Positions 1,107-63,909 of a stretch of DNA of 64,000 nucleotides are shown here, piece by piece (positions within the stretch are counted from its first letter, which is position 1; every line of letters begins with the position of its first letter). The notes beneath the pieces are model-generated. The model was not told where the DNA came from, did not search any database, and saw only the letters and a program-made list of their open reading frames with translations. The position numbers and the translations under genes are program-made. Source of the DNA: Scenedesmus sp. ARA3 (Eukaryota; Chlorophyta; Chlorophyceae; Sphaeropleales; Scenedesmaceae); assembly GCA_004335835.1 (NCBI GenBank), contig RWJK01000889.1:1-64000 (forward strand), read 5' to 3'.

Positions 1107-3105
1107 GCTGAGGGGCCACTCATCGCATGCAGCAGCCGGGGCCACACCCCAGCCGCCAGCCGCCGCCACACCACCCCCAGCAGCAGCAGCCGCAGATCAA
1201 GCAGCCGCCGCCGCCGCCGCAGCAGCACCCATGGATGTTGATGGAGATCTTGCGGCAGATGCAGCAGCGGCTGATGGCGCATTGGATGCAGCGGCTGCTG
1301 CTGCCATGCCGCTGCCTGCGGAGCCCAGCAATGCTGCAGGAACAGGCCAGGATGATGACGGTGTAGCAGCCGATGCAGAGGACTCATCCGCCACTGTTTC
1401 TGAGAATGCGCTGCTTATGGCCGGCACTGCAGCAGCAGCGCGGCAGCAGGCGGCAGCAGCAGGAGCAGCAGGCAATGCAGCAGCAGCAGAGGGTGGTGAT
1501 GACGATGACGATGCGCACAGCAGCAGCACGGTGACTGATGAGGGCCTGGGTGAGCAGGAGGCGCTGATGCAGGAGGTGCTGCAGCAGGTGAGATGAGAAA
1601 ACATGCACAACTAAAGCAGCAGTGACGTGCATTGGCTGTGAATAACAGATGTTAGTGGAGGGCCTGGGTGAGCAGGGGGCGCTGATGCAGGAGGTGCTGC
1701 AGCAGGTAAGCCAAGAACTCCACACTTGCTGCTGAAGCAGCAGTGGCAGCTGCCGTGCTGCGGCGTTCATTTTGGAGTGCATGCTCAAGCCTGCATGGGG
1801 GCTGCGGTTGCCAGTACGATGTGATTTGCGGTTGTCAGCAGGATCTGATGTGGGTTGCCGGTAGATCATGATCTGCGGTTGCCACTAGGATGTGATCTGG
1901 GTTGCCAGTAGGATGTGATCTGGGTTGCCACTAGGATGTGATCTGGGTTGCCAGTAGGATGTGATCTGGGTTGCCACTAGGATGTGATCTGGGTTGCCAG
2001 TAGGATGTGATCTGGGTTGCCACTAGGATGTGATCTGGGTTGCCAGTAGGATGTGATCTGGGTTGCCACTAGGATGTGATCTGGGTTGCCACTAGGATGC
2101 GATCCGGGTTGCCAGTATGATCTGATCTGGGTTGACTGCTGCTCCAGGAATGCACACTATAAGCGTGCTTCCAGGGTTTGCATGCATCACAGGTGCCCGC
2201 AGCTACTGCCGTCGCAATTGCTGAAGGTGTATGCTGCTTCACTGGCACCAGTTGACTTCTGTCGTCTGAGTTGCTCTGCCTGTCTGCATTTGCTGTTGTC
2301 ATCGTAGGTCAAGGTGGTGCGCAAGCAGCAGCGGCAGCAGCAGAAGCAGGCGCAGCCACCCCAGCAGCAGCAACCCAACCTGCAGCAGCTGCAGCAGCCG
2401 CAAGCGCAGCAGCAACAAGTGCAGCAGCACTGGCAGCAGCAGCAGATCCAGCAACAGCAGCAGCAGCAACGCTGGGTTCCGCCTGCGCAGCCTCAAACCC
2501 TGAACCCTGAGGAGATCAACTACCTAGGCATCCCAGATAACATGCTCACGGGTGAGGACCAGCAGTGGCTGGTTTGATGGAAATGCACAGGAAAAAGCGT
2601 GCACTGCTATGTCAGCTTGGACATTTAGAAACGTGCGAGTAGCAAGGTGCGTACAACGTCGGATTACTTCCAGCACAATTCACGTGCTTTCCGCGCATTT
2701 GCAACATAGGACAAACACACCTGCATGCTATGCTACCTCAGCTGCGTGCCGCCCGCTCAAAGCGCCTGTTGTCCCTGTCTGCTGTTGCAGCCGACGAGAT
2801 CAAGATCAAGTGCCGCCAGCAGCTGCTGCATCACCAACAGTACATGTTTCCTCCCCGCCCCTGCCTTTGCTGCTGCTGCTGCTGCTGCCGCCGCTGCTGC
2901 AGCCGACCAGATCAAGATTAAGCGCCGCCAGCAGCTGCTGCATCACTAACAGCACATGCATCCTCCCTGCCCCTGCCCCTGCATGTGCTGCTGCTGCAGC
3001 TGCTGCTGCTGCTGCTGCTGCTGCAGCCGACCAGATCAAGATCAAGCGCCGCCAGCAGCTGCTGCGTCACTAACAGCACATGTGTCCTCCTTGCCCCGAC
3101 CCTGC

Positions 3106-3143
<38 letters not shown>

Positions 3144-6100
3144 AGCCGACCAGATCAAGATCAAGCGCCGCCAGCAGCTGCTGCAGGCCGGCCGCCTCGC
3201 CCGCGAGCGCGCCGCAGCCCGCAAGCTGCAGCAGCAGCGCGAGCGCGAGGCCCAAATGAAAGCAGAAGACGCCGCACTTGCAGCACAGCCCTTCTCGTAC
3301 CTGCAGCAGCTGCAGCAGCGCCACGCGGGTGCTGCTGCAAGGGTGGAGGCGAGGAAAAGGAGGCGGCTGGGGGCGGCTGCACATGATGGTGGCGAGGAGG
3401 GCTATGAGGGCCAGGGGGGCCAGGGGCTGCTGGTGACTGGCAGGGCTGCACGCAGGGATGAGCGGCACAGGTGAGCAGTGTGCCGGCATAGTGCAGGTAG
3501 TGTGCAGGCTATGTGGCATAAAGCACCACCACAGGGCGGAATACGAACGTGCGGGTGACCGGCAGGGCTGTCTGCAGGGATGAGCGGCACAGGTGAAGGG
3601 GTGCAGGCTGTGTTTAAATGATGTTGACAATTGTCTCTTGCCCTGTGGGGCCAGGGGCTGCTGGTGACTGGCAGGGCGGCACGCAGGGATGAGCGGCACA
3701 GGTAGGGGCTTGCGGGCGGGAGAGGCATGCACAGGCTTTTCAAGTGTTGTGGAGGTTGTGTGTGCTTGGCAGCGTGTGTGCCGATGTGCTTGTTAGCAGG
3801 CTGGGCTGCAAACAGCGATGAGCGGCGCAAACGCTCCCTGTAGGTTGGTGTCGGGCCCCTTGTAACGGCATTTGCCATGTTCACTTGTTCGAGCCGTCTG
3901 CAGGCCATAGCTTGATGCTTGCTGCTTCTGTTACATTGTTGCCGCTGAATGCCCTGTTGATGCAGGGCAGTGCCTGGTTGTCCTTGCTCCACACCTTTGC
4001 TGCTGCATGCACTCTAAGTGCAGCACACACTGTCAACCCACTCCGCCACCCCCTTTCATCTGTCCCGCGGCCGACCTGTGCATACCGCCCACCTGCTGTT
4101 TCTCTGCAGGGAGCGCATGCGCCTCATTGCTCAGGCAGCCGCGCCCACGCAGCGCAAGGACCCCACAGACCAGCGCAGCACACTCTCAATGCGCTCAGCA
4201 ATGCTGCCCCAGTGTCGAACCGCACGGTTGTTCTTGCGTTGCAGGGAGCGCATGCGCCTGGTGGCACAGGCAGCCGCCCCCCACGCAGGGCAAGGACCCC
4301 AAAGGCGGCAAAGGCGGCGGCAGGGACAAAAAAGGCGGCAAGGATGTCAAGGGATTGCCCACTATCTGAAAACCACGGACTCACTGCTTTGCCGCCCTTC
4401 TGCTACACCACCCGCCTGCCACTCATTTGCAGGGAGCGCATGCGCCTCATTGCCCAAGCAGCCGCCCCCACGCAGCGCAAGGACCCCACAGACGGCAGAG
4501 GACGCGGCAGGGGCCGCGGCAGAGGCCGGGGCCGGGACAAGAAAGGCGGCAGGGGTGACAAGGGCAAGGAAGGCAGGCGCAGGGGGCCCGGGGTGGGGCT
4601 GGAGGACTCGGCGAGTGAGGAGGGCTTTGGTGATGACGGCGCTGACTGGGAGGTGTACCGAGCCATGGACATGCGCGACAGCGACTCTGGTGAGAGGTTC
4701 TGTGATGTTGCAACACGTCCATGCTGTCTCTTTGCCATACATTCAAAGTATATGCCCGTGAGATCTCCAGCGCGCAATGTCGCATTATGTGGGAGCTCCA
4801 GCCCTGGATGCTTGGATCTTGTCAACATGTTATCTAGGTGGCCCTGCTGACGGGTCTGGCTAGAGCTGCAGCATAAACTAGATGCGAGTCTCACAGGTGC
4901 TGTTGCTGTTGCCATTGCTGCTCGCAGATGTGGCTGCTGCCGAGGAGGCTGAGCTGAACTGGACTGCGCAGCGGCTGCAGCAGATTGGCGCAGCAGTGGC
5001 CTCAGCAGCAACAGCAACGCTGGCAGCAGCAGCGGCAGCAGGCGCAGGCGAGGCAGGTGCTGCAGACGCAGCAGCAGTGGTGGCAGCAGCAGCGGCCGAC
5101 GTAGCAGCAGGCGAGACAGGTGACACTGCTATGCCTGATGCAGGCGTGGCTGCTGCTGCTGCCGGTGCTGCTGCTGCTGCTGCTCCTGGCAGCAGCAGCA
5201 GGGCAGTATCTGCAGAGCCGCCGGAGCAGGGGAACATGCTAGAATCTGCAGCAGCAGCAATCGCAGGGCAACTCTGCACACTCGCCTACCCCCCAGCATC
5301 TGTCGACCCCTACCAGTCTGCTGCTGCTGCCCAGCAGCTCCCGGAGGCCCTTGCAGGCCTAGACCTAAACCTCCTGGGTTTAGGTGGCTTAGGGTTTGGC
5401 GAGGTTTTGGGCGCCGGGCAGGGCGGTTTAGGCGCCGCGCCGACAAAGCAGCTGACAGCAGAGGATTACCAGCTGCTGTTTGGTGTTGAAAGGGTGCGGG
5501 TTCCTGAGCTGCTGATGCAGCCTGCTGCATTGGCTGGTGTGGATCAGGCTGGGTTGCCGGAGGTGGTTGGGCTGGTGCTGCGGCGGCTGCCGAAGCATGT
5601 GCGGGAGGCAGTGGCGGCTGGAGGCGTGGTGGTGACTGGCGGCAATGCGCTGTTTGCAGGTGTGTGGGTGGTGCAGAGATGATAAGTGTGACAAGCTCAG
5701 CTCTGGGTATTGTGTGTGTGTGGAGGCTGACGCACATTGGGTGACGCAGCAGGAGAGAGGGTTGTACTTGGGGACGACAGGGCCATTGCTTTTTGCACGG
5801 TTGCGAAACTAGCCAACATTGCGGCAGTAACTGCTTTGCTGTGAAGATGCTGGTTGGCAGCTCGGCGGCTAACAACTGCATCTTCCCCGCATGCACACAC
5901 TACAACCTGCATGCAGCTCACGTGCTGCTGCACGCTCTGCTGCTCTGCTTCTGTGTCTGTGCACTTGCTTGCAGGCATACAGCCGCGCCTGCGGGCTGAG
6001 CTGGCCTCACTACGATTTTGAAGTAACATACCGCCCACGTTTTGCTGTACCGGCTGCTGCTTCTGTCTTTTTTGTTGCAGGCATGCTGCCGCGCCTGCAG

Positions 6101-6503
6101 GCTGAGCTGGCCTCACTACGACATTCAATGAACACACCACTCACGTTCTGCTGTACCCGCTGCTGTTGCTGTCTCGTTGTTTGCAGGCATGCTGCCACGC
6201 CTTCAAGCTGAGCTGGCGTCACTGCGGCCCCCAGGGCAGCCCATGCCCCTGTGGGTCAGCGCAAGCCCCCTGCTAGACACCTGGAGGGGCGCAGCAGCGC
6301 TGGCAGCAGCAGCAGGCCGCAGCAACCACACACCTGCAGCAGCAGCAGGGCTGAGTGCTAACGGCGGCGGCAGCAGCAGCGGTAGTTTGCTGTTTGCGGA
6401 TCCGTTTGCTGCTGGGTCTGGTGCGCTGAGCCGGGCACTGTATGATGAGGCAGGGGTGGATTACCTGAAGGAGTTCAGGGGCTTCAAGTACCCTGAGCTG
6501 TGA
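1107..6503 (+). CDS. ARP5: Actin-related protein 5 (INO80 complex subunit), C-terminal part
   Basis: Exons by phase-consistent joining: about 1107-1587, 2308-2551, 3146-3470, 4433-4689, 4928-5659, 6187-6503 (stop). The protein follows plant ARP5 through its large insertion and C-terminal actin lobe: IPDNMLT, then IKIKRRQQLL, FSYLQQLQQRHAGA, RERMRLIAQAAA, DDGADWEVY, EEAELNW, GVERVRVPELL, GVDQAGLPEVV, VVVTGGNALFAG, and a WRGA-type end. ARP5 works in the nucleus with INO80 in nucleosome sliding. The first actin lobe is not seen, so it lies upstream of the window or is lost. An in-frame ATG at 1057 exists, but the ccacag before 1107 looks more like an acceptor. An Arg-Gly run (about 4490-4545) sits in the insertion. 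Introns hold repeated copies of the exon edges, listed separately. I am confident of the family, less so of exon 1. Confidence 0.85.
1656..1705 (+). repeat. Copy of the donor-side edge of ARP5 exon 1
   Basis: This 50-bp stretch repeats the end of the exon at about 1538-1587. By eye there are three base differences over the 17 codons, including one Glu to Gly change and changes in the first codon. It is followed by its own gtaag donor at 1706, alongside the real gtgag donor at 1588. It lies in the intron. Confidence 0.85.
1805..2134 (+). repeat. 23-bp minisatellite in an ARP5 intron
   Basis: About ten near-perfect copies of a 23-bp unit (gatgtgatctgggttgcc plus a-c-t-a-g or a-g-t-a-g) run from about 1889 to 2107, with degenerate copies on both sides. 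The two unit variants alternate for most of the array, giving a 46-bp higher-order period. It lies wholly in the intron between 1588 and 2307. Confidence 0.9.
2791..3190 (+). repeat. Four tandem copies of the acceptor-side edge of ARP5 exon 3
   Basis: The start of exon 3 (ADQIKIKRRQQLL) occurs four times, beginning at 2791, 2903, 3027 and 3146, spaced 112, 124 and 119 bp apart. Each copy is preceded by a CTG-rich tract ending in gcag. Copies two and three run into an in-frame TAA shortly after the shared part. Only the last copy continues into the long exon. Confidence 0.92.
3434..3705 (+). repeat. Three copies of the donor-side edge of ARP5 exon 3
   Basis: The end of exon 3 (VTGRAARRDERH) is repeated with its donor site: gtgagc at 3471 (the real exon), gtgaag at 3593 and gtaggg at 3702. 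A fourth, decayed fragment lies near 3807-3830. The copies lie in the intron between 3471 and 4432. Confidence 0.88.
4110..4490 (+). repeat. Three copies of the acceptor-side edge of ARP5 exon 4
   Basis: The exon start (ERMRLIAQAAAPTQRKDPTD) occurs after cag at 4110, 4245 and 4433. Copy one differs from the real exon by three synonymous codons only (GCT/GCC, CAG/CAA, GCG/GCC). Copy two has an extra C that shifts the frame after about ten codons, and it then runs on into a Gly/Lys-rich segment resembling the later part of the real exon. Confidence 0.9.
5975..6235 (+). repeat. Three copies of the acceptor-side edge of ARP5 exon 6
   Basis: Copies begin after gcag at 5975, 6081 and 6187, with a unit of about 106 bp that includes the preceding intron segment. 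Copy two and the real exon differ at six codons, all synonymous. Copy one differs from copy two by three amino-acid-changing substitutions and soon meets a TGA. Confidence 0.92.
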
Positions 6504-7076: not shown

Positions 7077-7111
<35 letters not shown>

Positions 7112-8360: not shown

Positions 8361-9948
8361 TGACAACCATCTGCCCTGTGCAGTTCAGGCTGTTAGGTCA
8401 TGAGGGCTCCATCCACAGGGTGACCTGGGGACCAGCAGCAGCAGCAGTAGATACAGGAGCAGGTCCAGCTGCAGCAGCAGCAGTTGGTGCTCCAACATAC
8501 CCGCACATGCAGGATAGCAGCAACAGCAGTGTGCTGCAGCTGCTGGGCAGCTGCTCAGATGACCGCACCTGCCGGCTGTGGCAGGTGCCGCTGCCGCAGG
8601 GCTCGAACAGCTGCCGCCAGCATGATGCTACAGCAGCAGCCGCAGCAACTGCAGCAGCAGCAGCAACACAGCAGGGGATCAGCAGCACGGCCAGTCATAC
8701 TCAGCCCATCGAGTCACTGGTGCTGAAGCCGTATGTGACACTGTGGGGCCACACAGCTAGGGTCTGGGATGTAGCACTGCTGCCCGTGCAGCAGCAGCAG
8801 CAGCCAGAGCGCACAGCCGCAGGCTTTGCTGGCGGCAGCAGCAGCAGTAGCAGCTGGCTGCTTGTCGCCACTGCCAGTGAGGACTGCAGGGTGCGGCTGT
8901 GGGACGGTGCTGCTGGGCGGGAGCTGGCGGAGCTGCAGGTGAGGTTTGGTGCTGCGTCATGTAGCTGTGGATAGGCTTAGGTAGGATATGTCTGTGAACT
9001 GCAGCTTGTACAGCAGGCACACAGCATGTTTGCTACTGATGAATGAGACGCCAGCGTCCAATGACCTGTTGCCATGTGCCGTGGTTTGTGTTGTGCAGGG
9101 CCACAGTGGGCGAGGCGTGTGGCGCTGCTGCTTCCTGCCAGGCAGCCAGCAGCTGGCCTCAGCAGGCGCTGACGCTGCCCTCAAATCGTGGCCGCTGCGG
9201 TCATGGCTGCTAAAGCAGCAGCAGCAGCAGCAGCAGCAGCGGGTTCCGGCTGACTTAGCACAAGCAGCAGCTAGCAAGAGTTGCGTCCATGTCGACAGCA
9301 GCAGCATACCCTCTGCAGCTGGTCCGCAGAGAGACAGCACCCACCAACAGCAGCAGCAGCAACTTCTGGTGCCTGTTGTGCGGCAGTTCAGCCTTGCAGC
9401 CAGCTGCAGCATTAGCAGCAACAGTAGCAGCAGCGCGGCAGCAGCTGTGAATGACAGCAGGAAGGAGGCTGTTGCTGCAATGTGCCTGGCAGCACCTGAT
9501 TGGCTGCTGCTGGCCACTAAGCAGGGCCTGCTGCATGCAGCACATGTGGATGTGGCTGCTGCCAGCGATAATAGCAGTGAAATGCAAGCTGATAGTAATG
9601 TATCAGACAGCAGCAGCAGCAGCAGCAAGCAGGCAGCAGGGCGTTCTTGGCAGCAGCTGTATGCTTGCAGCCGGGATGCAGGTCCGCTGATGGCAATGGC
9701 ACAGCTGGCATCCACACGCAGCAGCAGCAGTAATAACAATGCTGGCGGAATAGTAACAGTACAGCACAGCAGGGTTGCAACAGGGCACTTGAGGGGCATG
9801 GTGGTGCTGCTGGATGCACAGCTGCCACTGCATGGCAGCAGCAGCAGCATGGTCGACATCGCTGCTGCTGCTGCTAATCCTGCAAGCAGTAAACCGCTGC
9901 TTGAGCCTGATGCACCAACAGCGCAGCACAGAATAGGCAGTGACAGTC

Positions 9949-19198: not shown

Positions 19199-21218
19199 AT
19201 GCTGCTCAACAGAAATGCCCTGAAGTGCTGCTCTGGGCAATTGAATTGCCCACGTCGTGCGTTCCTGCCTGCAAAGCCAGTGGGATGTGGCAGGCCAGCA
19301 GTGACCAGGAACAGTCGCAGGCTGGCTGTGGCTGTCAAGGCGCAGGAGCAGGAGTTTGGTCTGTAAGAGCATTATACGTTAGTGTGTTTTATTGTTTTGC
19401 GCCCTGCATGTAGGCTGCAACATATGCAGAAGGCTTTGACATGCAGGAGCGCTGCTGTGTCCACCCACCGGTGACCCCTGGCCAGCAGCTGTACCACTTG
19501 CATGCATTGCTATGTTGCCTCTTCTGGCAGCCATATTGTTTATGAATTCAAAGAGCATGCGTTGCTGCACGTTTGTTCAGCTTGCTGTACGCTAGGCATG
19601 CTCAAGCTGCAGTAGCAGGCCCCTCTGTGCTTGCCCTGTCATCTTCCACTCACTCCCACCAGTTCGCTGCCCTATTACCTGCACACAACTCCTGACCATG
19701 CCTACTCGCCTCAGCCTCTTCTCCCCTTCTCTCAGCTTTGCTGTCACTCACACTGAATCAACTGCTGTGCCGCACCTGCACCTTGGAACAACACCATGCA
19801 GCGCTCCTGCAAAGCCCAAGACGCCCTACGGCGAGATGCTGCAGTACTACCTGCGCATGGAGCCGCAGCTCTTCCGCGCAGCAGTAGACCAGCAGCTAGT
19901 CCGAATGAAGGAGGAAAAGGACGCCAAAGACGCGGCAGCAGCAGCAGCAGCAGCGTCGGCAGACGAATCCGGGGATGAGGCAGGCAAGCAGCAGCGCAGC
20001 AAGAGTGAGCTGGTGCTGTACCAGCGCATGGAGGAGGTGCGGGCGATGGAAGTGCGGGCTACGCTTGAAGACCTGATGTATGTGTCCATCCTGGAGAAGT
20101 TTGTGCTGCTGCAAGTGGAGATGCTGCCGCGCCTGGACGGTGAGTGAGCGGCAGTGGCATTGGTCGGCGTTGTCCTGCAAGCAGCAGGGGAGTATGTGCT
20201 GGCTGCAGAGCAGCGCGTGTGCTTGGTGCGGCTGTGAAGTGCAGCTGCTTCTCAGCAGCTAGCAAGGTGGAAGAATGCAGGGCTGAACATGAACGTATGC
20301 ATGAAGCTGGGCTGCTGGGCCTCGTGAAGGCAGCAGTACGTGCCGCCAGAGTTTCTGTGGGCTGAGTCACCAGCTGCACAGCAGAGCACATGGCGAGTGC
20401 ACGAGCCGCGCAGCTTACACAGGCGTCATACTCACTCTGTGCTGTGGTGTTGCTGCTGTCGCGCTGTGTGGATTACCCGCAGGCTTTGTTGACGCGGGCC
20501 CCGCCAACCTGGTTGCTCTCACTGAGGGCATCCACAGCCGCGAGGCGCTGGAGCTGGTGACATCCGACACCTCCCGTCTCCCTTGCTGTTCGCACGCCCT
20601 CTGCCTCATCCGCCTCTCCTGCCTCACCATGCTGCAGGCTTTGTCGATTGCCCCGACTGAGGGCGTCCACAGCACCTATTGCCTTCCTTGCTCACAACTG
20701 CTGCGCTCCTGTCTGCTGCTGTACCCTGCATGCCGCAGGCTTTGTCGATGCCGGCCCCGCCAACTTGGTTGCGCTGACCGAGGGCATCCACAGCCGCGAG
20801 GCGCTGGAGCTGGTGCGCGAGCACATGCTGGGCGTGATGGGTGCGGCAGCATCAGCCAAGTTCTCCACGGAGCTCATCAAGATGAGCAAGTTCCAGATGG
20901 CGCAGGTGGGTGCATGCAAGCTTGGCCTAAAAGGCCTCTGAAGTTGCATAGGTGATATGCGTGACCAAGAGCAGCGAGCGCCACGTTCTTGATGGAGCTC
21001 ATCAAAATCAACAAGTTCCAGATGGCGCAGGTGGGCGGGAGGAGTGTGCTGTCTGCAGAGGATTGGTGGTGTCGCAATTGGTGGGGTAGCGCGTGACTGC
21101 ACAACACAGGGGAGGCATGTTCAAATGTGTCGGAATAGCGCGGGTGCAAGCAGCGCCTGCTGCACGGGTGCACGTAAGGGCCGTGCACCAGCATTTATAG
21201 CGCTTGCTGCTGCGGTGA

Positions 21219-21265
<47 letters not shown>

Positions 21266-21838
21266 GGCTGCTGTCGCTGCCGCAGGTGTACGCTGCGTCC
21301 ATCATGTTTGGTTACTTCCTGCGCCGCGTGGACACGCGCTTCCAGCTGGAGGCGGCGCTGGGCGTGCTGGATGAGCGCAGCCAGGAGGAGGCCGTGGCGC
21401 GCCTGGAGCGGCTCTTCGCGCAGGTGCGGCGCGGTTGCTGCTGTTGGCTGTTGTGCTGCCAGCTACTGATCAGATTGCGGCACGCCAACAAGCGCATGAT
21501 GTTGTAATTTGATATTAACTACATGATATCCTACAGTGTCACGAGCTTCAGAGCAGGCATGTGCCCTGAAGCATCCACAGCTTGTGTCAAGCCTGTGCAG
21601 TATGGTTGGGCATATGAAGATTACACCAGCAAGCTGTACCATCCCGCGCTGGTTCTCACCTGCTGTACTGTTGACAGAGAATTTTACTGTGGTGGTGGCT
21701 GCTGTTGCTGCTGCTGTGCAGGCTGATGACCTGGACGTCAGCTCAGACCCAGATGCACCAGGGCCCATCGTAGACATACTAGGATCACAGGAAGAGGAGG
21801 ACCCCATACCCAGCAGCAGCAGCAGCGACAGCAACAAA

Positions 21839-21870
<32 letters not shown>

Positions 21871-22819
21871 CAGCAGTGAAGCAGGCAGCAGCGAAGCTGG
21901 GAGCCGGCCGCGCGGGCCAGTGCGCAGCGATAGCAGCAGGGGCCGCAGCGCGCTGCGGAAGTACATAGAGGGCTTTGACCAGGCCACCATGATTGATACG
22001 GCTAGGGTGGTGAGCGCAGAGGGCGCTGCGCTGGTGGAGCGGCAGACGACTGCGCTGTTTGGAGACATCAAGGAGCTCACCCAGCAGATGCAGGTGCGAG
22101 ATATTTGCAGAAGAGTGCAGGGTGCAGCAGTGCTGTGTGTTTGATTACCGAGCATGTAGTCAGCAAGTGGCAGCCAGCGGCTACATGTGGGGGCGTGATT
22201 GCAGCATGCATCAGCAGATGTGCCACACTGGTGTCGTGCCAGGGCACTGCACGGATGTAGAAGAGCCCCCACCACACCAGCGAAAACCTTGTACAGGCAA
22301 TGTGTGTAGTTGTGTGCTTTGTTAATGTCTGCTGCTGCCAGTCAACTGCGCGCTGGAGGCTGCGGGGCAGGATGTAGGCAGCGCAGCGGAGCTGTGCAGC
22401 CGCTCGCACAATCCAACCTTGCGCCTGCCAATTGCTGTTGTTTCATCTGCTCCCGCAGGAGGCTGTAGGGCAGGACGTAAGCAGCGCAGAGGAGCTGTAC
22501 AGCCGCATGCATATACTCACCCCACGCGCTTACTGGCTGTGATTCCTTTTGCTTTTGCTCGCAGGAGGCTGTGGGGCAGGATGTGAGCAGCGCAGAGGAG
22601 CTGTACAGCCGCATCCAGCGTGCAGTGCAGACCAACGCGATTGAGACCGTCACCATGACCATCGCCACGCAGCGGCGCTGCGTGCTGGAGGCTGTTGCGT
22701 TCGGCACCTTCCTGCGGGACGTGGAGACGAGCGTCAACACAGATTATGGGCTGCTGACGCCGCTGCCACCACCCAAGCTGCCGCCTGGTGCTGCTGAGGA
22801 CCCGCGCATGGGCGTGTGA
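19199..22819 (+). CDS. Plastid DUF760 family protein
   Basis: Six exons keep phase: 19199-19362, 19802-20139, 20739-20905, 21286-21423, 21722-22093, 22565-22819, predicting 477 residues. Exon 1 encodes a typical plastid transit peptide (MLLNRNALKCC... RRLAVAVKAQEQEFGL; few acids, many Arg and Ala). The body matches plant DUF760 proteins (the Arabidopsis At3g17800 type): MLQYYLRMEPQLFRAAVDQQL, VLYQRMEEVRAMEVRATLED, HSREALELVREHM, VYAASIMFGYFLRRVDTRFQL, RKYIEGFDQATM, TQRRCVLEAVAFGTFLRDVE. The biochemical role of the family is not known to me; Arabidopsis members are reported as light- or UV-responsive plastid proteins. An acidic Ser-rich insert (about 21770-21890) is specific to this copy. Exons 3 and 6 have extra edge copies in the flanking introns. 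Confidence 0.9.
20483..20690 (+). repeat. Two extra copies of the start of DUF760 exon 3
   Basis: A copy of 26 codons starts at 20483. It differs from the real exon (20739) at seven codons, all synonymous. A second copy at 20638 has an internal deletion that joins the first codons to a later point. A copy of the end of exon 3 with its gtggg donor lies downstream at about 20985-21030. Confidence 0.92.
21221..21265 (+). repeat. CTG tract acting as the pyrimidine tract of DUF760 exon 4
   Basis: Fifteen CTG units end about 20 bases before the cag acceptor at 21285. The interval is also CTG-like, so the triplet run stands where a polypyrimidine tract is expected. Confidence 0.85.
22366..22510 (+). 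repeat. Two extra copies of the start of DUF760 exon 6
   Basis: Copies begin near 22366 and at 22459; the real exon begins at 22565. The nearer copy differs by three synonymous codons before diverging. The farther copy has several amino-acid changes and has lost its AG acceptor (gctg in place of gcag). Confidence 0.9.
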
Positions 22820-39642: not shown

Positions 39643-42600
39643 ATGTCAGAGCAGAAGCCCAGCCCTGCTGAGTTGGCTGCAGCAGCAGCTGCTGCAGCAG
39701 CAGGCATGGCAGGTATTGGTGGCACCCTAGCAACTCGCATGGCACCCTCGGGCGCAAGCAGTACCAGTGCGCTGGTTATGCTTCACTCGCACTCGCCCAC
39801 ACATGCGACAACAGCCATGACTACCAGCAGCACTGGTCCTGCAAGCAGCGCAGAGCCCTACTCATCATCGGCAGGAGGCTCTGCCGGCGATGAGCTGAAG
39901 CTGTCTACATACAACCCGTGGACACCACAGGTGCGAGAGTGCTGTGACGCGCCGCAGCAGTAGCAGCAGCTGCACATGTGCCAAATGTGTTGCAGGATCA
40001 GCACAATCAGAAGCAGCAGACGTAGTCAGGCACAGCTGTGAGCAGGAGCAGGGCATGTGAGCATCATCTGGCATTGGCAACTGCTTAAGAATTGCAAACA
40101 TGCTTGCAACTGCTTGAGAATTCAGCTGCAACATGCTGAATCATGCTCGCAGACACACTTGCAGGAGAATGAGAAGCTGCGGCAGCTGGTGGCCAAGCAG
40201 TGCTTGCAACTATTGATGTGCCCGCAAACATGCTTGCAATTGCCTCTGCTGTGCCTGCAGGAGGATGAGAAGCTACGTGAGCTAGTGGCCAAGCACGGCG
40301 CACAGAACTGGTCCGCCATTGCCAAGGCGCTGCCCGGCCGCAACGGCAAGAGTTGCCGCCTGCGCTGGGTCAACCAGCTGCGGGATGACATAAAGACTGA
40401 GAGCTTTAGTGAAGAGGAGGACCGGATCTTGTTGGAGGCGCATCGGCTGTATGGCAACAGATGGACGCAGATTGCCAAGCTGCTGCCCGGCAGGTGCGGC
40501 GGAGTTCTGAGAGCAAGGGTAACTGCTTTGCAAAACAAAGGGGCTGGTTGGGGTGGCCGGGATGGTTTGCAGGGCACTTGCCAAGTTAGATTGCGAGGGC
40601 TATGTTAGCAATGTCTTCTGGTGCCTTTTGTGGGATTGAGCAGCTCCGCCGCTAGTCGTGTGGTTGCACTGGAGGTGACACGCCGTGTATCGCTACATGG
40701 CTGCAATGCTTGCAGGACTGACAACGCAGTCAAGAACCGCTGGCACTCCACTCTGAAGCGCCAGGCTGAACGCCAGCAGGCAGAGGAGCGGGAGAAGCAA
40801 GCACTTGCTGCAATGCTCATTGCCAGCAACCCGGCGCTGGCAGCACAGCTGCACTTGCCAGGCGCTGCAGCAGTGTCGGCGAGTCAGCAGGTGGCAGCAG
40901 CCGCGGCAGCAGCGGCAGCAGCAGCAATGACAGCCCAGCAAGGCTACAGGGTGTCAGCAGCTGTGCCTGCTGCTGGATCTGAGGGTTCTGGGGGACCCTT
41001 CCAGCAGCTGCCAATGCCGGCACAGCTGCAGCAGCCTGTGCGGCAGCAGTCTGTGCAGCCACAGGAGCAGCAGGCAGCAGCAGCAGCAGCTGCAAGTAGT
41101 CAGGGCGGCACTCAGCAGCAGCAGCAGCAGCTGACAGTGCTGACTCGTGAGTGGCAGGATGAGCGGGAGCGGCAGCTGGTGGCTGCGTTGTATGCCAAGG
41201 GGCATACGTCTATGGCTGTGCAGCTGCATAACCAGCTGCAGGCGAACCAGCATCTGCCTGCAGAGCAGCGGCTGCATCTGCTGATAGCGCTGCTCAATGC
41301 AGGGGGTTACGGAGACCTGGCTGCGCTGCTGCAGCAGCAGGTGGCACGGCACCAGCAGCGGCAGATCCTGCAGCAGCAGCAGGCGCAGCAGACTTACAGT
41401 GGAGGATCAGGAGGCCTGTCACCAGTAGCAGGGGCAGCAGCAGCTGCTACTGTTGGTGGCAGCTCGCCTGCGTTTGACAGTCCACTGCCACAGCAGCAGC
41501 AGCAGCAACAGCAGCAGGTCCAACCCATGTCTGGCCTTACAGGTGCGAGCAGTGACATCAACGCACAGCTGTGGTGATGTGATGGCTAGAACTTGCTGCA
41601 GCCGCTCTCTGTTGTCTAGTAAGCTGCTGCCGCGTCGGCTGGCTGGAACCGATGCATGCATTGGTGCAACAAGTTCGCTGCTGCTACTGCCGTGATTGGT
41701 CACCCTTATGACGTTCTTGTTCTCCATCACTGTTGCTGCAGGCCCCACACTGCCAGCGTTCATGTTTGTGTCAGCGCCGCAGCAGCAGCTGCAGGCAGCC
41801 GCAAGCCCAATGCACCCCCGCAGCGGCAGGAGCAGCAGCCAGGCAACACCTGATGCAGCAGCAGCGGCAGCAGCAGCAGGAAGCTTCATGCCTAGGGGCA
41901 CGTTTGCCATGCTGCCACAGGCAGGCCAGCAGTGGCAGCAAGCCTCACAGGGTGGCGACAGCAGCCCCACACAGGTGTGCGTATGTGTCTCTTGCTGCTG
42001 TTTGCGATGCTGTAAGGACGGGCAACATAGCACAGCTGCTGTTCATGCACAGGCATAACGATGGCGGGTTTGACAGTACCACATGCATTTCGTTGATTCG
42101 GCTTAACAGTTCTGTCAAAGTTCTTTCTGCGCACAAGTTGCATGTTGGGCTTGAAGGCTGATTCTCCCGTCTCCAGTTATGTGCTGCAACTGGTGTTGAG
42201 CAGCACACATAGCAGCTCTTTGAGTTGCTCAATGCCCTGAACGTACTGCTGCTCTTGCTTGTGCTCTTGCTGGTGCCTGGGCAGGCGTTCAAGCGGCTGC
42301 GAGCAGACCTAGAGCCGGTACCCTCCCGCAGCACCGGCAGCGCAGGCGCAGCAGCGGCAGCAGCAGCAGGCTCAGCCGGCGCGCCACCACAGCAGCAGCA
42401 GCAGCAGGCGCCGCAGCAGCCAGCCGCAGCAGCTGGTGGGCTGGGCGGTGGCAATGGCAGCCCTCCTTCACTGCCTGGCAGCTTTTTGGGCAACAGCATG
42501 GGGCAGCTGATGGGGAGCCTTGCTGGCGCAGCAGCAGGTGGCTTGACTGGCAGCCATCACGGCTCTGCTCTTAGCCTCGCAGACTTTTTCGGCATGGACG

Positions 42601-55326: not shown

Positions 55327-58300
55327 TAAGCACATATCCGCAATTCAGCTGGCTGTCATGTACGTTGTTGTGTCACTGGCATGGTCCACAAGCTGAAACC
55401 TGAAAAATTCCTGCGCCAGCAGCACAGCCCCAACCGCGTAGCAAACTCAACACCTTGCTGCTGCCTTTGAGCTCAACGTGAAGGCGTGTGCTTGTGCACT
55501 TACTGAAACACTTGCATGCACCAGACTGCCCACCTGTACACGATGGTAGCTGTTTTGTCGATGACGTTGACGCGGTGGATCTCAATGAGGTACCACATGT
55601 TGTCGTCCGGCCAGAACATCTCAGCCTGCCGGCCCTGCAAACACATACGCGCAGCAGCAGCAACAGCAGCAGCAGCAGCAGCAGCAGCACAACAGCTACT
55701 GAGCACTGCAGGAAGCCGCAGAGGATGCCTACAGCAGCGCAGTGCGGCTTCACAATCAACTATGCAAACCGTGGTGCTGCAAAGGCTTCACACGCTGTGC
55801 GGCACCTGTTCACAGCCCTCACTTGCCCCCCACGCAGCCCACCTGCAGGTCCGGCTTGATGTCAGACACCTGCAGCAGCCGCCCCGGCAGCTGCGGCTGC
55901 TGCGCGCTGTCCATCAGCCCCAGCGTGCGCTCGTGGTGCGCAAACTGCAGCGTAGGATACATACTATCCCCGCCGGCCGCCATACTACTCGGGTTGCTGC
56001 TGCCGCCGCCGCCGAATCCTCCCATTCCTCCAAACTCATCTCCCTGGGCCAAAACCGCTGCTGCCATCACCCTCTGGTCTTCCCTGACCCGCTTCTTGGT
56101 AGTAGGGATGTGAGGAGGGATGCCGGCACCGCCCATTGGGCCGCCGCCTGCACCCGGCCCCACTGGTATCCGCTTGAGGCTGGGTGCTGCGAGGGGCTCC
56201 AGGCTGTCCCATTGGTCGGCAAAACCCTTGCCCTTGCCCCTGCCGCCGCCTGCAAGCAGTGGTTTAGGGTTCAGCAGGGTTTGAGAAAGAGAGGATTGAG
56301 GTTTAGGATTTAGGGTGTGAGGGGCTCTAGGCTGTCTCACTGGTCGGCAAAGCCCTTGCCCTTGCCCCTGCCGCCGCCTGCGGTTTTGCGGTTTGGGTGG
56401 TTCAGGGTTCAGGGGTTGGAGGAGCAGCACAGATGGTGGGTTGATTGTGGAGGCCACAGGGTGTTGGGAGGTGCAGCTGGTCGGTGTGCATTGACTGGCG
56501 CAGCAACTAATTGTGGAACCATGCTGTGCCCGGCAACATATCTGCACATAAGTGCGCATGCAAACTGCCTGCAGCCCAGTCAGCGAAGTGCTGCAGTCTG
56601 GCGCAAGCCTGGGTGCTGCTGCGTATAAATCACCTGCAGAGTAGGGCTGCTCAAAAGGGTTGTACGCGTCTGCTGCTGCTGTGGGTATGGCCGCCACTTC
56701 CTCCTCAAACTGGGCGGTGGTCTGGCAGTGGCAACAACAACAGCAGCAGCAGCAGCAGCAGCAGTGATGACAGCAGGCTTATCAGCAGCAAGCACAACAA
56801 GAGATGCATGGGCATGCCAGGGTGCGCGGCATGCACTGCCATGCCGCTGCCTGCTGCTACAGCACCTGCAGCCACCTCCAGCAGCTGTTGTGCAGTGGGC
56901 TGTGCCCAGAGCTGCTGTGCCGTGCCTGTTGTTCAGCAACAAGCCCAGAGCGCGTTGCTCCTGCTGTAGTGGCTGCTGCTGCCATCTGCGCTGCTGCTGC
57001 TGTCGCTGCACTTGTCACAGTCACTAGCACCCACCCCAACTGCTCGCAAGATGCTGGGTGACCAGCAATGTCCCAAACGGCGCAAGATGCTGAGTGACCA
57101 GCAATGTCCCAAACGGCGCAAGATGCTGAGTGACCAGCAATGTCCCAAACGGCGCAAGATGCTGAGTGACCAGCAATGTCCCAAACGGCGCAAGCATACG
57201 GCACTAGCGGCTATCCAGCTGGGCTGCTGCTGCTGCTGCTGCTCAACAGCCAGCCGTCTCGGCGCGTCCAGCTCATGCTGCTGCTTTGTTATAAGCTCCA
57301 GCGCATACCGCGCAACAGGCGTACCCACAACGCACGATGCTAACGCTGCCGCTGCTGCTGCAGCTTATGCTGCTGCCGCCAATTGCTAGAGCACTCACCG
57401 CGTCCAGCTCTCGCTGGTGGTTGGTGATCAGCTCCAGCGCGTGCTGCGCCAGCGTGACCTTCTCCTCGCTGAACTGGTACAGCAGTGCCTCCTGCCGCTT
57501 GAAGGCAGCTACCAGGCCCAAATATTCCTGCGGGCAGGCAGCAGCAGCAGCAGCAGGGTGCAGCAGCAGCAGTGACAGCAGAGGAGCGAAGATTGAGACC
57601 AGTGCCGTGCTTGTTGCAGACATGCCTGCTTCCCAGCAGACCAGCAGATCAGCACAGCTGTGTTTTTTCCTCTTTTAACGGTTGCTTCTGCTGCTGCTGC
57701 TGCTGCTGCTGCACGCACCTGCTCGTCTGGCCCGCCCTTCCTGCTGCCTGCTGCCGGCTCCATCCTGCACAGCGCGTCAGTGGTGTGCTTGATGGCCTCC
57801 ATCAGCTCAGCTGTGCGAGCATCAAGCACCTGGCAGCAGCAGCAGCAGCAGCAGCAGCGGCAGCAGCAGCAGCGGCAGCAGCAGCAGCGGCAGCAGCAGC
57901 AGCGGCAGCAGCAGCAGCAGCAGCGTTAGTTGAGGATGTGTGGTGTGCTTGATGGCCTCCATCAGCTCAGCAGTGCGCGCATCCAGTACCTGGCAGCAGC
58001 AGCAGCAGGGAGTGTTGTTTGATGACAGCTGGTGCTTGCAACTAAGCAAGCAGCGACAGCAGGGATGCGCTGCAAAGTGAAGAGCGCCAACTATATGGTG
58101 GATGATTCGCTGCACGCACACACTCAGCCAGCATGCAGCGGACTGTGCTGTGTGCGCAGGACGGCAACCAGCCACTGCAGCACAGTACTGAAGCAGCCGG
58201 CACACCAAACTGCTGACGGAAGAGCCCTGTCAAGGGACAGCCATGCTGCCACCCCGCTGCCACCACGCCGCACTGCCTTACCCTGATCATGTTGAGGAAC

Positions 58301-59428: not shown

Positions 59429-59459
<31 letters not shown>

Positions 59460-59575
59460 TAGGCCCAGCTTGGCAGCCCCAGGACATCCTCAAAGCAACT
59501 ACAGCTGATGGCACCACTCTCTTCATGGAGGTAATCAGCACTCCAGCAGCCAGCGGCACGCAAGCAAACAGTGAC

Positions 59576-59606
<31 letters not shown>

Positions 59607-61805
59607 CGATCGTCGCCCACCAAGGCGTGCTGTATGCAGTGCAGCAGACGCAGCAGCACCTGCTGCTGCTGCCGCAGGGCTGGCAGCTGCAGCCGGAGCA
59701 GCAGCTAGTCAAAGCCCTGCCCGGCTGGCCAGCAGCACTGCAGCAGCTGCAGGCCAAGCAGCGACTGCCGCAGCAGCCGCTGCAGCTGCAGTCGGCGGCT
59801 GTGGTGTCATCGGCTGCGCAGCTGCAGGCGGCAGTGCAGCGCAACCCTGCTTTGTGGAGAGATGGCACAGGTGCGGGGGGTAAAGTACAACAACACTAAC
59901 AGGATGACTCACCCGAGACACGCTGCTTCAGGCTGTTGGGGCAGCGTGGTTCCTTGCAATGCGTGCATGCTTGAGCACTGTGTGTGGCTAAAAGCAGTTG
60001 TTGCATGCACATCCCCAGCTGCCCTGTGGAGGGATGGCACAGGTGCGGCCTGCTAGGGCTGGCAGAGCAGCAACACCGACTGCTTTACCCCAGCCTACTT
60101 GCAGGCTGTTGCAGCAGAATGTTTCTTCTCGCAATGGACGTCTGCCGGAGACTCTGTATGGCTATGAGAGTAGTCGCTGCATGCGAGTCTGAAGCGAACA
60201 CGTGACATGCTGCGCCTGCAGGCCCATCGGACCCCCAACTGCAGGGCCTGCAGTACCAAACGTTAGCAGCAGGCGAGGTGGATAGCCTGCTCTCCAGGGC
60301 ACGTGGCCTGGTGATGGTGTTGTGCAATGCATCACATGAAATTGAATGCCTCTATACTGCCCCACATGCATCTGGCTTGCTGCCCTTGCAGGCCCATCGG
60401 ACCCTCCACTGCAGGGCCTGCAGTACCAGACGCTAGCAGCAGGCGAGGTGGAGAGCCTGCTGAGCAGGGCACGCGGCCTGGTGATGGTGCAGCTGGTGGT
60501 GGGCTGGGATGCTGGGGTGCCGCAGCCGGTGTACAACCCGCTGCTGCTGCACAGCCTGGGGCGGGCGCTGCGGGACGCTGATGTCAGCATCTTCATGAGC
60601 AAGGCTGCAGGTGCATGATGTTGTTGATGTTTGTGACATTTGGTCGCATTTCCACTGACAGTGTGTCTTACAGCCAGCATCAGCATTTTGTATGGCTGCA
60701 GCTGCAGATGAGGCGGCTGCTGCATTGAGTTTTTGGCAGTTGTCCAGCACTGTTGCGTGGTGCTGCTGATCCGCTGACAGTGCATGGTTCGTTGCTGACA
60801 GCAGTGAGCCACACACTAGCAGCTGTCGCATCCGCAACAATGCTGCGTGACAATGGATCGTAGTCAGCCAGCTCAGCTTGACTGTACCAGGCGCAACAAC
60901 CAGCAAAACCCAGCATTCATCAAGCAGGCCATGATCTCGCTGCCATTGCACCCTGTGTGCCACCATGCTCTGCAGGAGGATTAGGCCTGACGGCCATTTT
61001 GTGTGCCAAGGCTGAGCCGTGGCGGGCCTGGGGTGCCCACCTGGCGGGCTTTGGCGCTCAGGCGGCGCTGGTGGCTGACTCAGCCTACTACAAGCTGCTG
61101 ATCGGGCGCATGCTGGGGTACAAGGAGGGCCACATCCACGCCCACATCCAGGTGGGGGCATGGCTGATGATTTAGATGTTTTGCTGCCCTTTCAACCGGG
61201 CCTTTACACTGAAACTAACAGCTTTGCAAGCTGCTGATCGGGCGCATGCTGGCGTACAAGGAGAAGCACACCCACGCCCTCATCCAGGTGGGAAGAGTGG
61301 GCGGTGATGGTTATGTTCCTGTTGGCAGAGCCTATGTTGTTATGTGGCTGTTACTTGATTTGTGAGCAGTGGCCTCTTTTGCGGCTGACGTGTAAGCGCC
61401 GAACAGATGTGCCAAGTGCTCGCACTGGGGCTCTGCATAGCCGGCCGAAGGCAGGTGCTGATCGGTAAGCTGCAACTGCCTCATGCAACTGCCATGTTCT
61501 GACTTGTCATCATCATGTCACCATTGAAGCCATAGCAACGTCTCCATGTGCTGACTTGTGCAAGGCTTACATGCTTGCTCCTGCTGCAGGCCACCTCGGG
61601 CCGGCTACAGCCTACGCCCGAAGTGGTGGCTGCTGTGGACAAGGACATGGCCAAGATAAGCAGGAAGAAGCCGCAGCTGCCTTGGAGCGCAAGCAGCGCG
61701 GCTGGCGGCAGCAAAGCAGGCGGCAGCAAAGCAGGCGGCAGGAAGCAGCAGCAACCGCAGCAGCAGCAGCAGCAGCTGCCGAGGTCAGCGCGCAAGAAGC
61801 GCTAG
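59252..61805 (+). CDS. Conserved-looking protein of unknown function
   Basis: Four exons keep phase: 59252-59870, 60392-60610, 60976-61151, 61590-61805, predicting about 409 residues from the first in-frame ATG. The first exon is Ala/Gln-rich and low complexity. The rest is compact and looks like a folded domain: GLVMVQLVVGWDAGVPQPVY, NPLLLHSLGRALRDADVSIF, LAGFGAQAALVADSAYYKLL, IGRMLGYKEGHIHAHI, VVAAVDKDMAKISRKKPQLP. The end is basic (RSARKKR). I do not recognise the family and assign no function. The start is uncertain, since an upstream targeting exon is possible. All three internal junctions have extra exon-edge copies nearby. Confidence 0.68.
60014..60041 (+). repeat. Copy of the donor-side edge of exon 1 of the 59.3-61.8 kb gene
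   Basis: The phrase ALWRDGT with its gtgcgg donor occurs at the real exon end (donor 59871) and again here. The codons differ mostly at synonymous positions. Confidence 0.8.
60222..60320 (+). repeat. Extra copy of the start of exon 2 of the 59.3-61.8 kb gene
   Basis: This copy spans about 33 codons and begins after gcag, like the real exon at 60392. Eight codons differ, six of them synonymous, including Ser TCC against AGC. The copy stays open throughout. Confidence 0.92.
61225..61290 (+). repeat. Copy of the donor-side edge of exon 3 of the 59.3-61.8 kb gene
   Basis: The phrase KLLIGRML and following codons are repeated with a gtggg donor, after the real donor at 61152. Four codons differ, all changing the amino acid, so this copy looks decayed. 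Confidence 0.85.
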
Positions 61806-62378
61806 GGGCTCAGCTGGCAGTCCTTGGGCCCTTGTGCGGAGCACCCCAAGTTTTGTAAAGAGATCTGTTACTGAGTGGTTTAACTGGCTGTCTTATAGCA
61901 TCATGAATACGCAGTAACAGTTGCCTTGTACTGTGCGCTCTGAGCTGTCCTATTGCTGGGCCCATGACAGCATGCCACACGTGCACGCCATGCATGTGCC
62001 GCATAGCACGCCTGTGCAAGCAGTGCGCACTCCCTGGTGCTGCCTGAATTGCACAACGCCACCAGCTTGCCTCTCGTCAATCTGGTGGCAGCCAGAAGCA
62101 CCTCTAGTGGCAGCCAGAAGCCGCACGCTACAGCTGCAGTACAGTTGCAGATGATACTTGGCTCTGGTTCTTGCCAAAGAACCCTAGCGACCTTGCCACG
62201 GCAACTCCACAGCTTGCGGTGGTGGAGAAAGCGCTCTTACAGCTGGTTCTGCCTTTATTGATTTGTTTCCGGTCACGGAAGCTGCCTGATCCCGATAATC
62301 GCATGCGTTGTCAGCCTATCTGTAGATGTTGTACTGTATCGCCGTTGAGCAGCATGCACACGCCCGATCGATAGCAGG
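61806..62378. other. Spacer between two plus-strand genes
   Basis: These 573 bp hold no supported gene. They presumably include the 3' end of the upstream gene and the promoter of the next. Confidence 0.45.
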
Positions 62379-63909
62379 ATGATCAAGAAGCGGAGGATAT
62401 TGGCTGAACAGTCACCGGTGACAAACCATCACAGCAACACTGCGCAGCTGCTGCTGCAACAGCAGCTTGGCCTGCAGAGCTGCACTGCCATTCGCAGGAA
62501 GCTCTTAGAGGCATCTGTACAGCGCTTCACGTTGCAGGTGATGCTTTTTTACTTTTGACCACCCACAACATCCAGCTGTCAACATTAGGCCAAGAAGGGA
62601 ACAGTGTCAGCACAAGGGTGCCAGGAAGCTCGTCAAACCAAACTACATCTGACCTCCGGACCTGCTGTCGCATCATGTGTGCAACTGCTGACCTCACACC
62701 ACTCACCTCCAGGCTGCCATTGACACGTACGATGAGGGATCCAGTGGGGGTATGGCACTGCCGTACATGCAGCGCCGCAGCGCAGTGCTGGAGCTGCTGG
62801 CCCACGGCCAGCTGCTGTTTGTGCTAACCAACAGCGGGCTGTGCTCGGTGCACCACATGGGCGGTGAGCGGCATGCTGCTGGGGCCCCATCTAAACATGT
62901 CAGGGGCCTTATTTGCACATAGTGCTGCTGCAAACTGTGCTTCCTGTACCTTTCTTACACATGCTGCGGCAGCAGCAACTCCACAGCAGCAGAGGAGCAG
63001 GCGGCTTGTAGGGCACTGCTCCAATGTCGCCAATGCTGGTGGTGCGACGCGGTTGTGCGTTTGCATGGTGTGCCGACAGGCTGACTAAGCAAGTGGCACT
63101 CGAGCCAGCGCGCCTGGTGGCAGCCCCCTTTTGCTCCCCTGCAGCTACAAACATTTACATGCAGTGGGCACCATACGTGTGTTAGCTACAGCGTGCAGCG
63201 GCACCCTTACAACCTCTGGTTCCTACAGCATGCCACATCTGCTGAGCACCTGTTGTGCCACCTTGCCTGAACCTGCTGCCGCATCTGCAGTGTCACGCAC
63301 GCGGCGCCTAGGCTACCTGAATGCTCTGGTTGCTACAGATTGCCGCACATGCTGAGCAAATGTTGTGCCTGGACCTGGTGCCGCATCTGCAGTGTCACGC
63401 ACGCGGCGCCTAGGCTATTTGAATGCCGGCCCGCATGACGTCATCCGCTCCATCGTCTTCAACGAGTGTGACAGCAGCATTCTGGCTGTGTCATTCCACT
63501 CGACAGATACGGCCTTCCCCAACCAGCTGCACTGCAGATCGGTGCCAGCACACAGCAGGTAGGCAGATGCCATGCATGCTGCAAGCAGGCAGTTCGCCTG
63601 TTGGAGGGTTCTGGCCCCCATAACCACACAGCATGTTGCACTGGAGACATGCACAATGACAGACCTATTCTCAACAATTGCCCTGCGGCAATTCCAGCCC
63701 CACAGTGCGGCCCTGCTTACTGATACGCTGCTGTTTGACCGCCTGTTGACCTGTTGCAGCTCTTTCACCAACAACACCAGCAGCAGCAGCAGCGCTGGCC
63801 CCTGGTGCATTGCTGCCGGCATGGCCATCTGTGAGCCTGTGGCCTTCCCTGGCTTTGTGGAGTTTGATGAGGCAGCACACAGGGCACTGCTGCTGAATGC
63901 AGCCACCAT
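62379..63909 (+). CDS. Plant-conserved WD40-like protein, N-terminal part (runs off the window)
   Basis: Four exons keep phase: 62379-62537, 62713-62863, 63393-63558, 63760-63909, and the last ends in a gtgagt donor, so the gene continues past the window. The start MIKKRRILAEQSPVTNHH is an ATG. The sequence follows an uncharacterised land-plant family annotated as transducin/WD40-like (the Arabidopsis At2g38630/At3g54190 type): RRKLLEASVQRF, LPYMQRRSAVLELLAHGQLL, FVLTNSGLCSV, RRLGYLNAGPHDVIRSIVF, NECDSSILAVSFHSTD, LHCRSVP, FPGFVEFDEAAHRALLLNA. The link to those loci is from memory and should be confirmed. No biochemical role is known to me. Exon 3 has an extra copy of its start in the preceding intron. 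Confidence 0.75.
63222..63425 (+). repeat. 102-bp tandem duplication over the acceptor of exon 3
   Basis: Two units, about 63222-63323 and 63324-63425, each carry intron sequence, the phrase ccgcatctgcag and the exon start VSRTRRLGYLNA. In the exon part the copies differ by three synonymous codons (TAC/TAT, CTG/TTG, GCT/GCC) before diverging. The real exon starts at 63393. Confidence 0.92.

Follow-up and report, generated by a model that had tools for sequence, protein, structure and literature searches.

Exon-Edge Copies in the Introns of a Scenedesmaceae Contig

The stretch analyzed in this study (hereafter the window) comprises positions 1–64000 of the 68,155-nt contig RWJK01000889.1 of the green alga Scenedesmus sp. 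ARA3 (assembly GCA_004335835.1; 87.3 Mb, 1567 contigs), and several of its genes contain, inside their introns, short copies of the edges of their own exons. Pfam families support a DUF760 gene, a Myb gene and an actin-type ARP5 gene (the last through the related protein P0121), and the gene at 62.4 kb matches DUF7899. The minus-strand gene near 56 kb, named ING by an earlier sequence-only reading, matched no Pfam family at 1e-3; the names DUF760, Myb and ARP5 from that reading hold, and ING is without family support.

Repeats were sought by self-BLAST with short-unit runs masked, which revealed 13 clear copy-bearing exon edges in the window, each with one to three intronic copies: four donor edges (1588, 3471, 20906, and 61152) and nine acceptor edges (3146, 4433, 6187, 20739, 22565, 40261, 56250 on the minus strand, 60392, and 63393; Table 1). 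Donor copies lie downstream and acceptor copies upstream of the real exon, and this arrangement, the number of extra copies per edge and the genes concerned are as the sequence-only reading had described them. It had counted about fifteen edges; beside the 13 clear ones, two further local repeats of similar spacing, at 57780-57832/57940-57992 and 26340-26383/26467-26506, lack a firm tie to a confirmed exon. Neighboring copies in the window are spaced 96–170 nt apart, with exceptions of 188 nt (one ARP5 pair) and 256 nt (at 20739). By eye, 3801-3832 appears to be a fourth, decayed copy of donor edge 3471.

Exon structure was obtained with a home-made, two-strand gene-finding hidden Markov model (HMM) trained on the genome sample described below, which gave 37 genes, 500 exons and 463 introns with the splice consensus CAG/GTG(A/C)G at donors and TTGCAG/G at acceptors (the slash before GTG and before the final G marks the junction). 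The structure was checked against proteins of relatives for DUF760, valyl-tRNA synthetase and ARP5, the last compared by eye and with one relative, P0121, the only one that the protein search returned, probably because its candidate list filled up with low-complexity words. Intronic copies were often called by the HMM as additional exons; whichever copy ran on into the longer exon was taken as real, and one ARP5 exon that the HMM started at 3027 was corrected by hand to 3146 on the basis of reading frame.

Table 1. Exons with copied edges and their intronic copies in the window
Feature	Position	Strand	Evidence or remark
ARP5 exon 3′ edge, real, donor at 1588	1540..1587	+	self-BLAST; copy downstream
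Intronic copy of donor edge 1588, own GT at 1706	1658..1705	+	96% over 53 nt
ARP5 exon, real, acceptor 3146, donor 3471	3146..3470	+	reading matches P0121
Acceptor copy 1 of exon 3146, intronic	2791..2830	+	self-BLAST
Acceptor copy 2 of exon 3146, intronic	2903..2942	+	self-BLAST
Acceptor copy 3 of exon 3146, intronic	3027..3066	+	self-BLAST
Donor copy 1 of edge 3471, intronic, GT at 3593	3550..3592	+	self-BLAST
Donor copy 2 of edge 3471, intronic, GT at 3702	3647..3701	+	98% over 57 nt
ARP5 exon, real, acceptor 4433	4433..4689	+	HMM; P0121
Acceptor copy of exon 4433, intronic; exon part with 3 synonymous changes	4110..4172	+	
Acceptor copy of exon 4433, intronic, frameshifted	4245..4310	+	
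ARP5 last exon, real, acceptor 6187	6187..6499	+	HMM; P0121
Far acceptor copy of exon 6187, intronic	5975..6014	+	
Near acceptor copy of exon 6187, intronic	6081..6120	+	
DUF760 exon, real, acceptor 20739, donor 20906	20739..20905	+	tblastn with P0001/P0002
Copy of 20739 exon start, intronic; 26/26 residues kept, 7 synonymous differences	20483..20559	+	
Copy of donor edge 20906, intronic, GT at 21031	20980..21030	+	self-BLAST
DUF760 exon, real, acceptor 22565	22565..22815	+	tblastn
Far acceptor copy of exon 22565, intronic, AG lost	22356..22403	+	
Near acceptor copy of exon 22565, intronic	22459..22511	+	
Myb-gene exon, real, acceptor 40261	40261..40493	+	HMM; Pfam
Acceptor copy of exon 40261, intronic	40165..40199	+	self-BLAST
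Exon of putative ING gene, real, acceptor 56250	55843..56249	-	HMM
Acceptor copy of 55843..56249 exon, intronic	56316..56377	-	self-BLAST
Exon of 59–62 kb gene, real, acceptor 60392	60392..60610	+	HMM
Upstream copy of exon 60392, own GT at 60303	60222..60302	+	self-BLAST, HMM
Exon of 59–62 kb gene, real, donor 61152	60976..61151	+	HMM
Donor copy of edge 61152, intronic, GT at 61288	61227..61287	+	5′ spacer matches only itself in genome
Exon of 62.4 kb gene, real, acceptor 63393	63393..63558	+	HMM
Acceptor copy of exon 63393, intronic, complete 110-nt tandem unit	63283..63317	+	

Frequency and Spacing in the Genome Sample

The sample combined the window's whole contig with 169.5 kb drawn from 15 others (237,692 nt on 16 contigs; 19 stretches outside the window's contig, labeled L plus a number), which represents 0.27% of the assembly of one genome, with about 3% of the sampled letters being N. 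It contains 59 local repeat loci, about one per 4 kb, in agreement with the earlier view that these are not isolated accidents; five of the 19 other stretches (L004, L007, L008, L010, and L016) gave no match in the initial self-BLAST. The sequence-only reading had proposed aligning introns with their flanking exons, and this was run on the sample after called exons shorter than 40 nt had been dropped, leaving 326 introns and 652 exon edges. At score 36, 44 edges (20 donor and 24 acceptor) matched their own intron, and random pairing with introns of other contigs gave none in each of four rounds; at score 32 the numbers were 23 donor and 27 acceptor edges versus 0–1 by random pairing. Exon-edge copies are thus confirmed as real and present well beyond the window.

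A laxer cut-off yielded 73 repeat clusters, and none in shuffled sequence. The offset is 90–160 nt in 42 of them, with a peak at 110–120 nt (14/73); eight fall at 200–260 nt, none at 260–700 nt and nine beyond.

Effect on Intron Length

Changes in intron length are usually ascribed to transposons or small insertions and deletions. In our sample, the median length is 457 nt for the 39 introns that hold copies and 253 nt for the 287 that do not (p 2.5e-6); when the sequence occupied by the copies (7.7 kb of the 121 kb of intron) is left out, the former drops to 256 nt. The suggestion of a widespread process that lengthens introns is therefore borne out, and the extra length of the affected introns is explained by a size-limited, countable process. 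Protein matches put this genome beside Tetradesmus obliquus (95% in DUF760, 98% in valyl-tRNA synthetase), for which a mean intron of 462 bp is tabulated, compared with 230–302 bp in four other green algae (PMC5966456, Table 1).

Comparison with Proteins of Relatives

The copies of this genome are absent from the relatives' proteins examined for three genes (DUF760, ARP5, and valyl-tRNA synthetase). P0001, a protein of 473 residues from a 2031-nt contig and hence without introns, covers the DUF760 exons 19199-19363, 19803-20139, 20739-20905, 21286-21423, ~21722-22093 and 22565-22815 and none of the intronic copies of that gene. The T. obliquus protein P0122 (OEZ85_004004) yields the true valyl-tRNA synthetase exons on L017 together with ten further partial matches between them, at 9747, 9635, 8309, 7900, 7508, 6990, 4500, 3566, 2602 and 2501. 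In both genes the proteins of relatives read straight through the real exon borders, with the copies lying in between, indicating that no new intron has been created in the mRNA, and P0121 passes the ARP5 junctions 3146, 3471/4433 and 6187 without copies (by eye). The P0122 model continues past the synthetase into an alpha/beta hydrolase domain, which probably reflects a fusion of gene models, and the HMM likewise overruns the synthetase on L017.

No adjacent duplication of at least seven residues was found in 10 of 11 related proteins scanned, several of which are gene models and not transcripts. The exception, T. obliquus P0002, carries a duplication of 13 residues from an exon end, at a junction that is not duplicated in this genome, and this one annotated protein argues for a possible turnover of such duplications among relatives.

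Unequal Conservation of the Exon and Intron Halves

Sixty copies were collected at score 38, of which 45 meet the junction exactly and 48 to within 1 nt; most measures use these 48, and the other 12 were left out of the identity, splice-score, flank and frame measures. Identity over the 48 exon-copy pairs is 0.91 in the exon part and 0.68 in the 40-nt intron flank, with a null of 0.58–0.60 from unrelated introns. Pairs of intronic acceptor copies, in which no real exon takes part, behave in the same way (n = 17; exon-derived part 0.92, flank 0.66, null 0.60). The exon part exceeded the flank in 20 of 20 intronic copy pairs, by 0.25 on average; these pairs come from 13 sets, with one pair counted twice and nine in whole-exon arrays, and the ten distinct partial pairs, reckoned by hand, give 0.89 versus 0.64. 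The earlier picture of tandem duplication across the junction had not foreseen that the exon-derived half would be far better kept than the intron half.

Similarity drops within a dozen bases of the junction. Partial donor copies (n = 16) have an identity of 0.91 in the exon, 0.35 at intron positions +7 to +12 and 0.20–0.29 thereafter, where 0.25 is expected (0.20–0.27 over +13 to +30, null 0.25). Almost no homologous intron thus remains past their splice consensus, which tells against a unit that always spans the junction. In partial acceptor copies (n = 19) identity is 0.86 in the exon and declines from 0.54 to 0.34 along the flank, some flanks being plainly homologous and others unrelated. 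The exon at L020:796-1614 has 29–31 nt in common with its four intronic copies at 97–100%, whereas flank identity between those copies spans 0.56 to 0.95 from pair to pair. In simulation, flanks with a divergence of 0.10–0.15 still read 0.83–0.90. The flanks of the 13 copies with exon identity of at least 0.95 average 0.70 (by hand), and six of the 16 copies with exon identity of at least 0.93 have flanks below the 95th percentile of the null. Because the two halves of a single duplication would share one age, their unequal divergence suggests that one duplication followed by neutral decay is insufficient.

Substitutions in the exon-derived parts were counted after removal of duplicate copies (75 pairs reduced to 64). 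The 64 unique copies have 124 nonsynonymous (N) and 186 synonymous (S) changes, where a neutral copy predicts N of 174–194 (z -5.8 to -8.2); the ratio of nonsynonymous to synonymous changes per site (pN/pS) is 0.22 overall (bootstrap 0.16–0.29) and 0.27 at non-CpG sites, and CpG sites do not explain the deficit of N. Some exons taken as real in the tables of exon–copy differences are copies themselves (e.g., 3027), which should blur and not create the synonymous excess. The pattern is heterogeneous among loci (p 0.009). Partial donor copies look neutral (N 33.2, S 20.8; pN 0.065, pS 0.144), whereas whole-type copies (n = 13) have few amino-acid changes (N 17, S 47). Changes that could be placed on the intronic copies in 16 multi-copy sets, two of which overlap at ARP5, amount to N 57 and S 49, and to N 47 and S 25 when five whole-exon sets (L019, L020, and L022) are subtracted by hand. 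Protein-level constraint was rejected as a general cause: the overall deficit of N is real, but polarized partial copies and partial donors look neutral. The sample is depleted in CpG (observed/expected 0.54), and in the copies 42% of CpG third positions differ versus 12% of others, which suggests CpG hypermutability.

Proposed Local Duplication and Overwriting of the Exon Halves

We tentatively favor, with a probability of roughly 0.4, a combination of local duplication and recurrent short-tract overwriting of the exon halves from the real exon. Local duplications of about 115 nt would arise throughout this Tetradesmus-like genome, and those crossing an exon–intron junction would leave a partial exon edge with its splice signal in the intron. 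Splicing would ignore the copy, and the intron would grow. The exon-derived half might then be rewritten time and again by short tracts copied from the real exon, through template switching or conversion with either DNA or a transcript as the template; its similarity would thereby be preserved as far as the splice site, and the intron half would drift. The donor copies, with a similar exon edge, a dissimilar flank and neutral changes, suggest that the last copying event carried the edge and not the flank; staying similar, changing neutrally and stopping at the splice site is what repeated overwriting by the exon would leave.

Several observations weigh against this interpretation. The overwriting step and its template are inferred, and neither a conversion tract nor a template was seen; the 30–70 nt of homology is short for ordinary gene conversion. 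Flanks on the acceptor side are partly homologous, as plain duplication predicts, one L020 copy pair has flanks as similar as 0.95, and five of the 16 partial donor flanks exceed the 95th percentile of the null when gaps are allowed, so that weak, old homology remains. The overall pN/pS lies below the ~0.5 that, by our reckoning, copying plus neutral decay predicts. Whole-exon duplicates contribute part of this low value, but partial acceptor copies are low as well (pN 0.070, pS 0.283); conversion is no explanation, since it would be expected to push the ratio up, and overwriting does not account for the excess of synonymous changes in acceptor copies.

A stronger form of the proposal, which we regard as doubtful, is concerted evolution of exon edges with their intronic copies: copying, for example with a spliced transcript as the template, would end at the splice junction, and the genome would continually write exon ends into introns and inflate them. 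If the exon halves do evolve in concert with the exon, this would count as evidence that sequence is copied locally, possibly from a transcript, in the nucleus of a eukaryote; transcript-templated repair in human cells has been described (PMC12065846).

Alternative Explanations

Blind local tandem duplication followed by neutral decay, in which exonic duplications are purged, intronic ones decay unseen and those at junctions stay visible through their constrained exon partner, is an unlikely full account with some points in its favor. Head-to-tail arrays were identified at 20 of the 59 loci (satellites and intron-only loci included), in keeping with the tandem duplication proposed earlier; most other loci show the exon edge only, and the flanks of partial donors are not homologous. 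By content, the 59 loci comprise 47 with exon and noncoding sequence, five intron-only, four exon-only and three satellites, so that a unit "always" spanning a junction was too strong a claim. Spacing is similar in the intron-only and exon-only repeats, and the neutral changes in partial donors also fit blind duplication. Under blind placement, 35% of units not wholly within exons are expected to span a junction, an expectation whose exon fraction depends on the HMM, and 47 of 52 were observed to do so, the three satellites being left out here and from the intron-only similarity counts. This comparison is biased toward loci that contain exon, since constraint on the exon keeps such loci recognizable. 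Once all exons and their copies were masked, intron similarity remained in 17 rows at raw score 42 (none in shuffled sequence), and hand grouping gave 10 clusters that are in register with a repeat containing exon and five intron-only (p 0.012 versus 35%), much nearer to the blind expectation. The excess at junctions predicted by the sequence-only reading therefore persists in a far weaker form than 47 to 5; much of the preference is visibility, the remaining excess is modest, and we do not claim targeting. What blind duplication leaves unexplained is the contrast between halves in acceptor copy pairs, which include no real exon, and the degraded flanks of copies with nearly identical exon parts.

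The main alternative to overwriting itself is a role of the copies in splicing. Selection might keep them as decoy splice sites, with their flanking exon sequence, that tune splicing efficiency or intron retention, which we consider rather improbable. Among copies within 1 nt of the junction, AG is kept in 25 of 28 acceptors and GT in 16 of 20 donors, and their sites score like real ones (17/28 acceptors and 11/20 donors reach the real median); the low pN/pS and the conservation of exon-derived parts between copies would also be consistent with selection. However, the other end of the 48 copies offers no better partner splice site than random intron windows do, use of the copy site would be in frame and free of stops in only 3/28 acceptors and 0/20 donors (a frame shift or stop in 45/48), generic decoys need not match a particular exon, and changes in partial donors look neutral. 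The alternative splice sites envisaged earlier therefore find no support as productive ones. Full-strength decoy sites beside real ones provide a natural test of how the spliceosome chooses its sites.

Tandem exon duplication giving alternative or repeated exons is improbable for the set as a whole, although it suits a subset of whole-exon arrays (L015:9196-9585, L019:6054-6458, L020:796-1614, and L022:855-1431) in which the HMM gives both splice sites in most cases and amino-acid changes are few, as noted above. These loci were classed by reading and not by rule (L015 9255/9496, L019 6130/6391, L020 827, and L022 1085/1370), and 35 of the 48 junction-abutting copies were classed by hand as partial and single-ended. 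Most copies are not alternative exons, since they are single-ended and their use is unproductive; cassette or mutually exclusive exons were rejected for most of them on the lack of distal partner sites.

An assembly artefact, such as diverged haplotypes joined end to end, seems highly improbable. Five of the sequences used hold runs of 21 to 4802 N, and the copies differ mostly synonymously, as alleles would, but the window has many loci and no N, arrays of three to five copies with higher-order structure occur (L020), divergence varies among copies of one locus, and the T. obliquus protein with the same kind of duplication comes from a 6.0 Mb contig. Haplotype joining was rejected after the assembly was searched for second copies of two window stretches and none was found, in a search that passes over common words and gives scores to the top candidates only. 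Copying from splicing intermediates, by which edges would enter introns from RNA (the free 5′ exon giving donor copies and the lariat with the 3′ exon giving acceptor copies), would match the asymmetry between donors without homologous flanks and acceptors whose flank fades upstream, but head-to-tail arrays exist and most donor copies run into a GT with a good donor consensus, which a free 5′ exon lacks, and we give this idea almost no credence; the branch-point motif was weak in the sample introns when considered as a unit boundary.

Other Features of the Window

A tRNA-Ser (gct) gene is located at 851-932, upstream of ARP5, and a second tRNA-like stretch near 262-352 was seen by eye and not called. 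Intronic minisatellites occur at 1802-2134 (23-nt unit, ~14 copies) and 57045-57194 (36-nt unit, ~4 copies). Runs of the CAG/CTG type are very numerous across the window, in exons and before acceptors, and form the acceptor-side tract at ARP5 3146.

Comparison with Known Systems

Our literature search, which subscription journals largely escaped, found no description of pervasive junction-edge copies in algae. The copies differ from minisatellites in that edges in the window have one to three extra copies with variable spacing, and the two true satellites stand apart. Tandem and mutually exclusive exons (PMC9013439) are similar in placing tandem exon copies inside a gene, but the copies here are mostly partial, with a single splice site whose use would be unproductive.

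The nearest known systems appear to be introners, the proto-splice-site duplications of Drosophila and a boundary duplication in potato. Introners also generate intron sequence repeatedly in many genes, including those of green algae, but they are dispersed similar elements (PMC9860276), and they were rejected as a source here: the three spacers tested (61153-61226, 1588-1663, and 20906-20984) match only themselves, in a search that skips very common words. In the AGGT model proposed for Drosophila (PMC2891723), duplication of an exonic proto-splice site is a small local event that supplies splice signals and turns part of an exon into intron, as we observed; the unit here holds an existing junction instead of an exon-internal AGGT, and exon borders are unchanged in the genes checked. 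The potato case (PMC4974935) is a single tandem duplication across an intron–exon boundary that made a new intron, with the exon sequence of the upstream copy becoming intronic. The copies described here share that crossing of a splice junction, but in this alga many events have lengthened existing introns, donor-side copies occur as well, and the exon halves are kept while their flanks drift.

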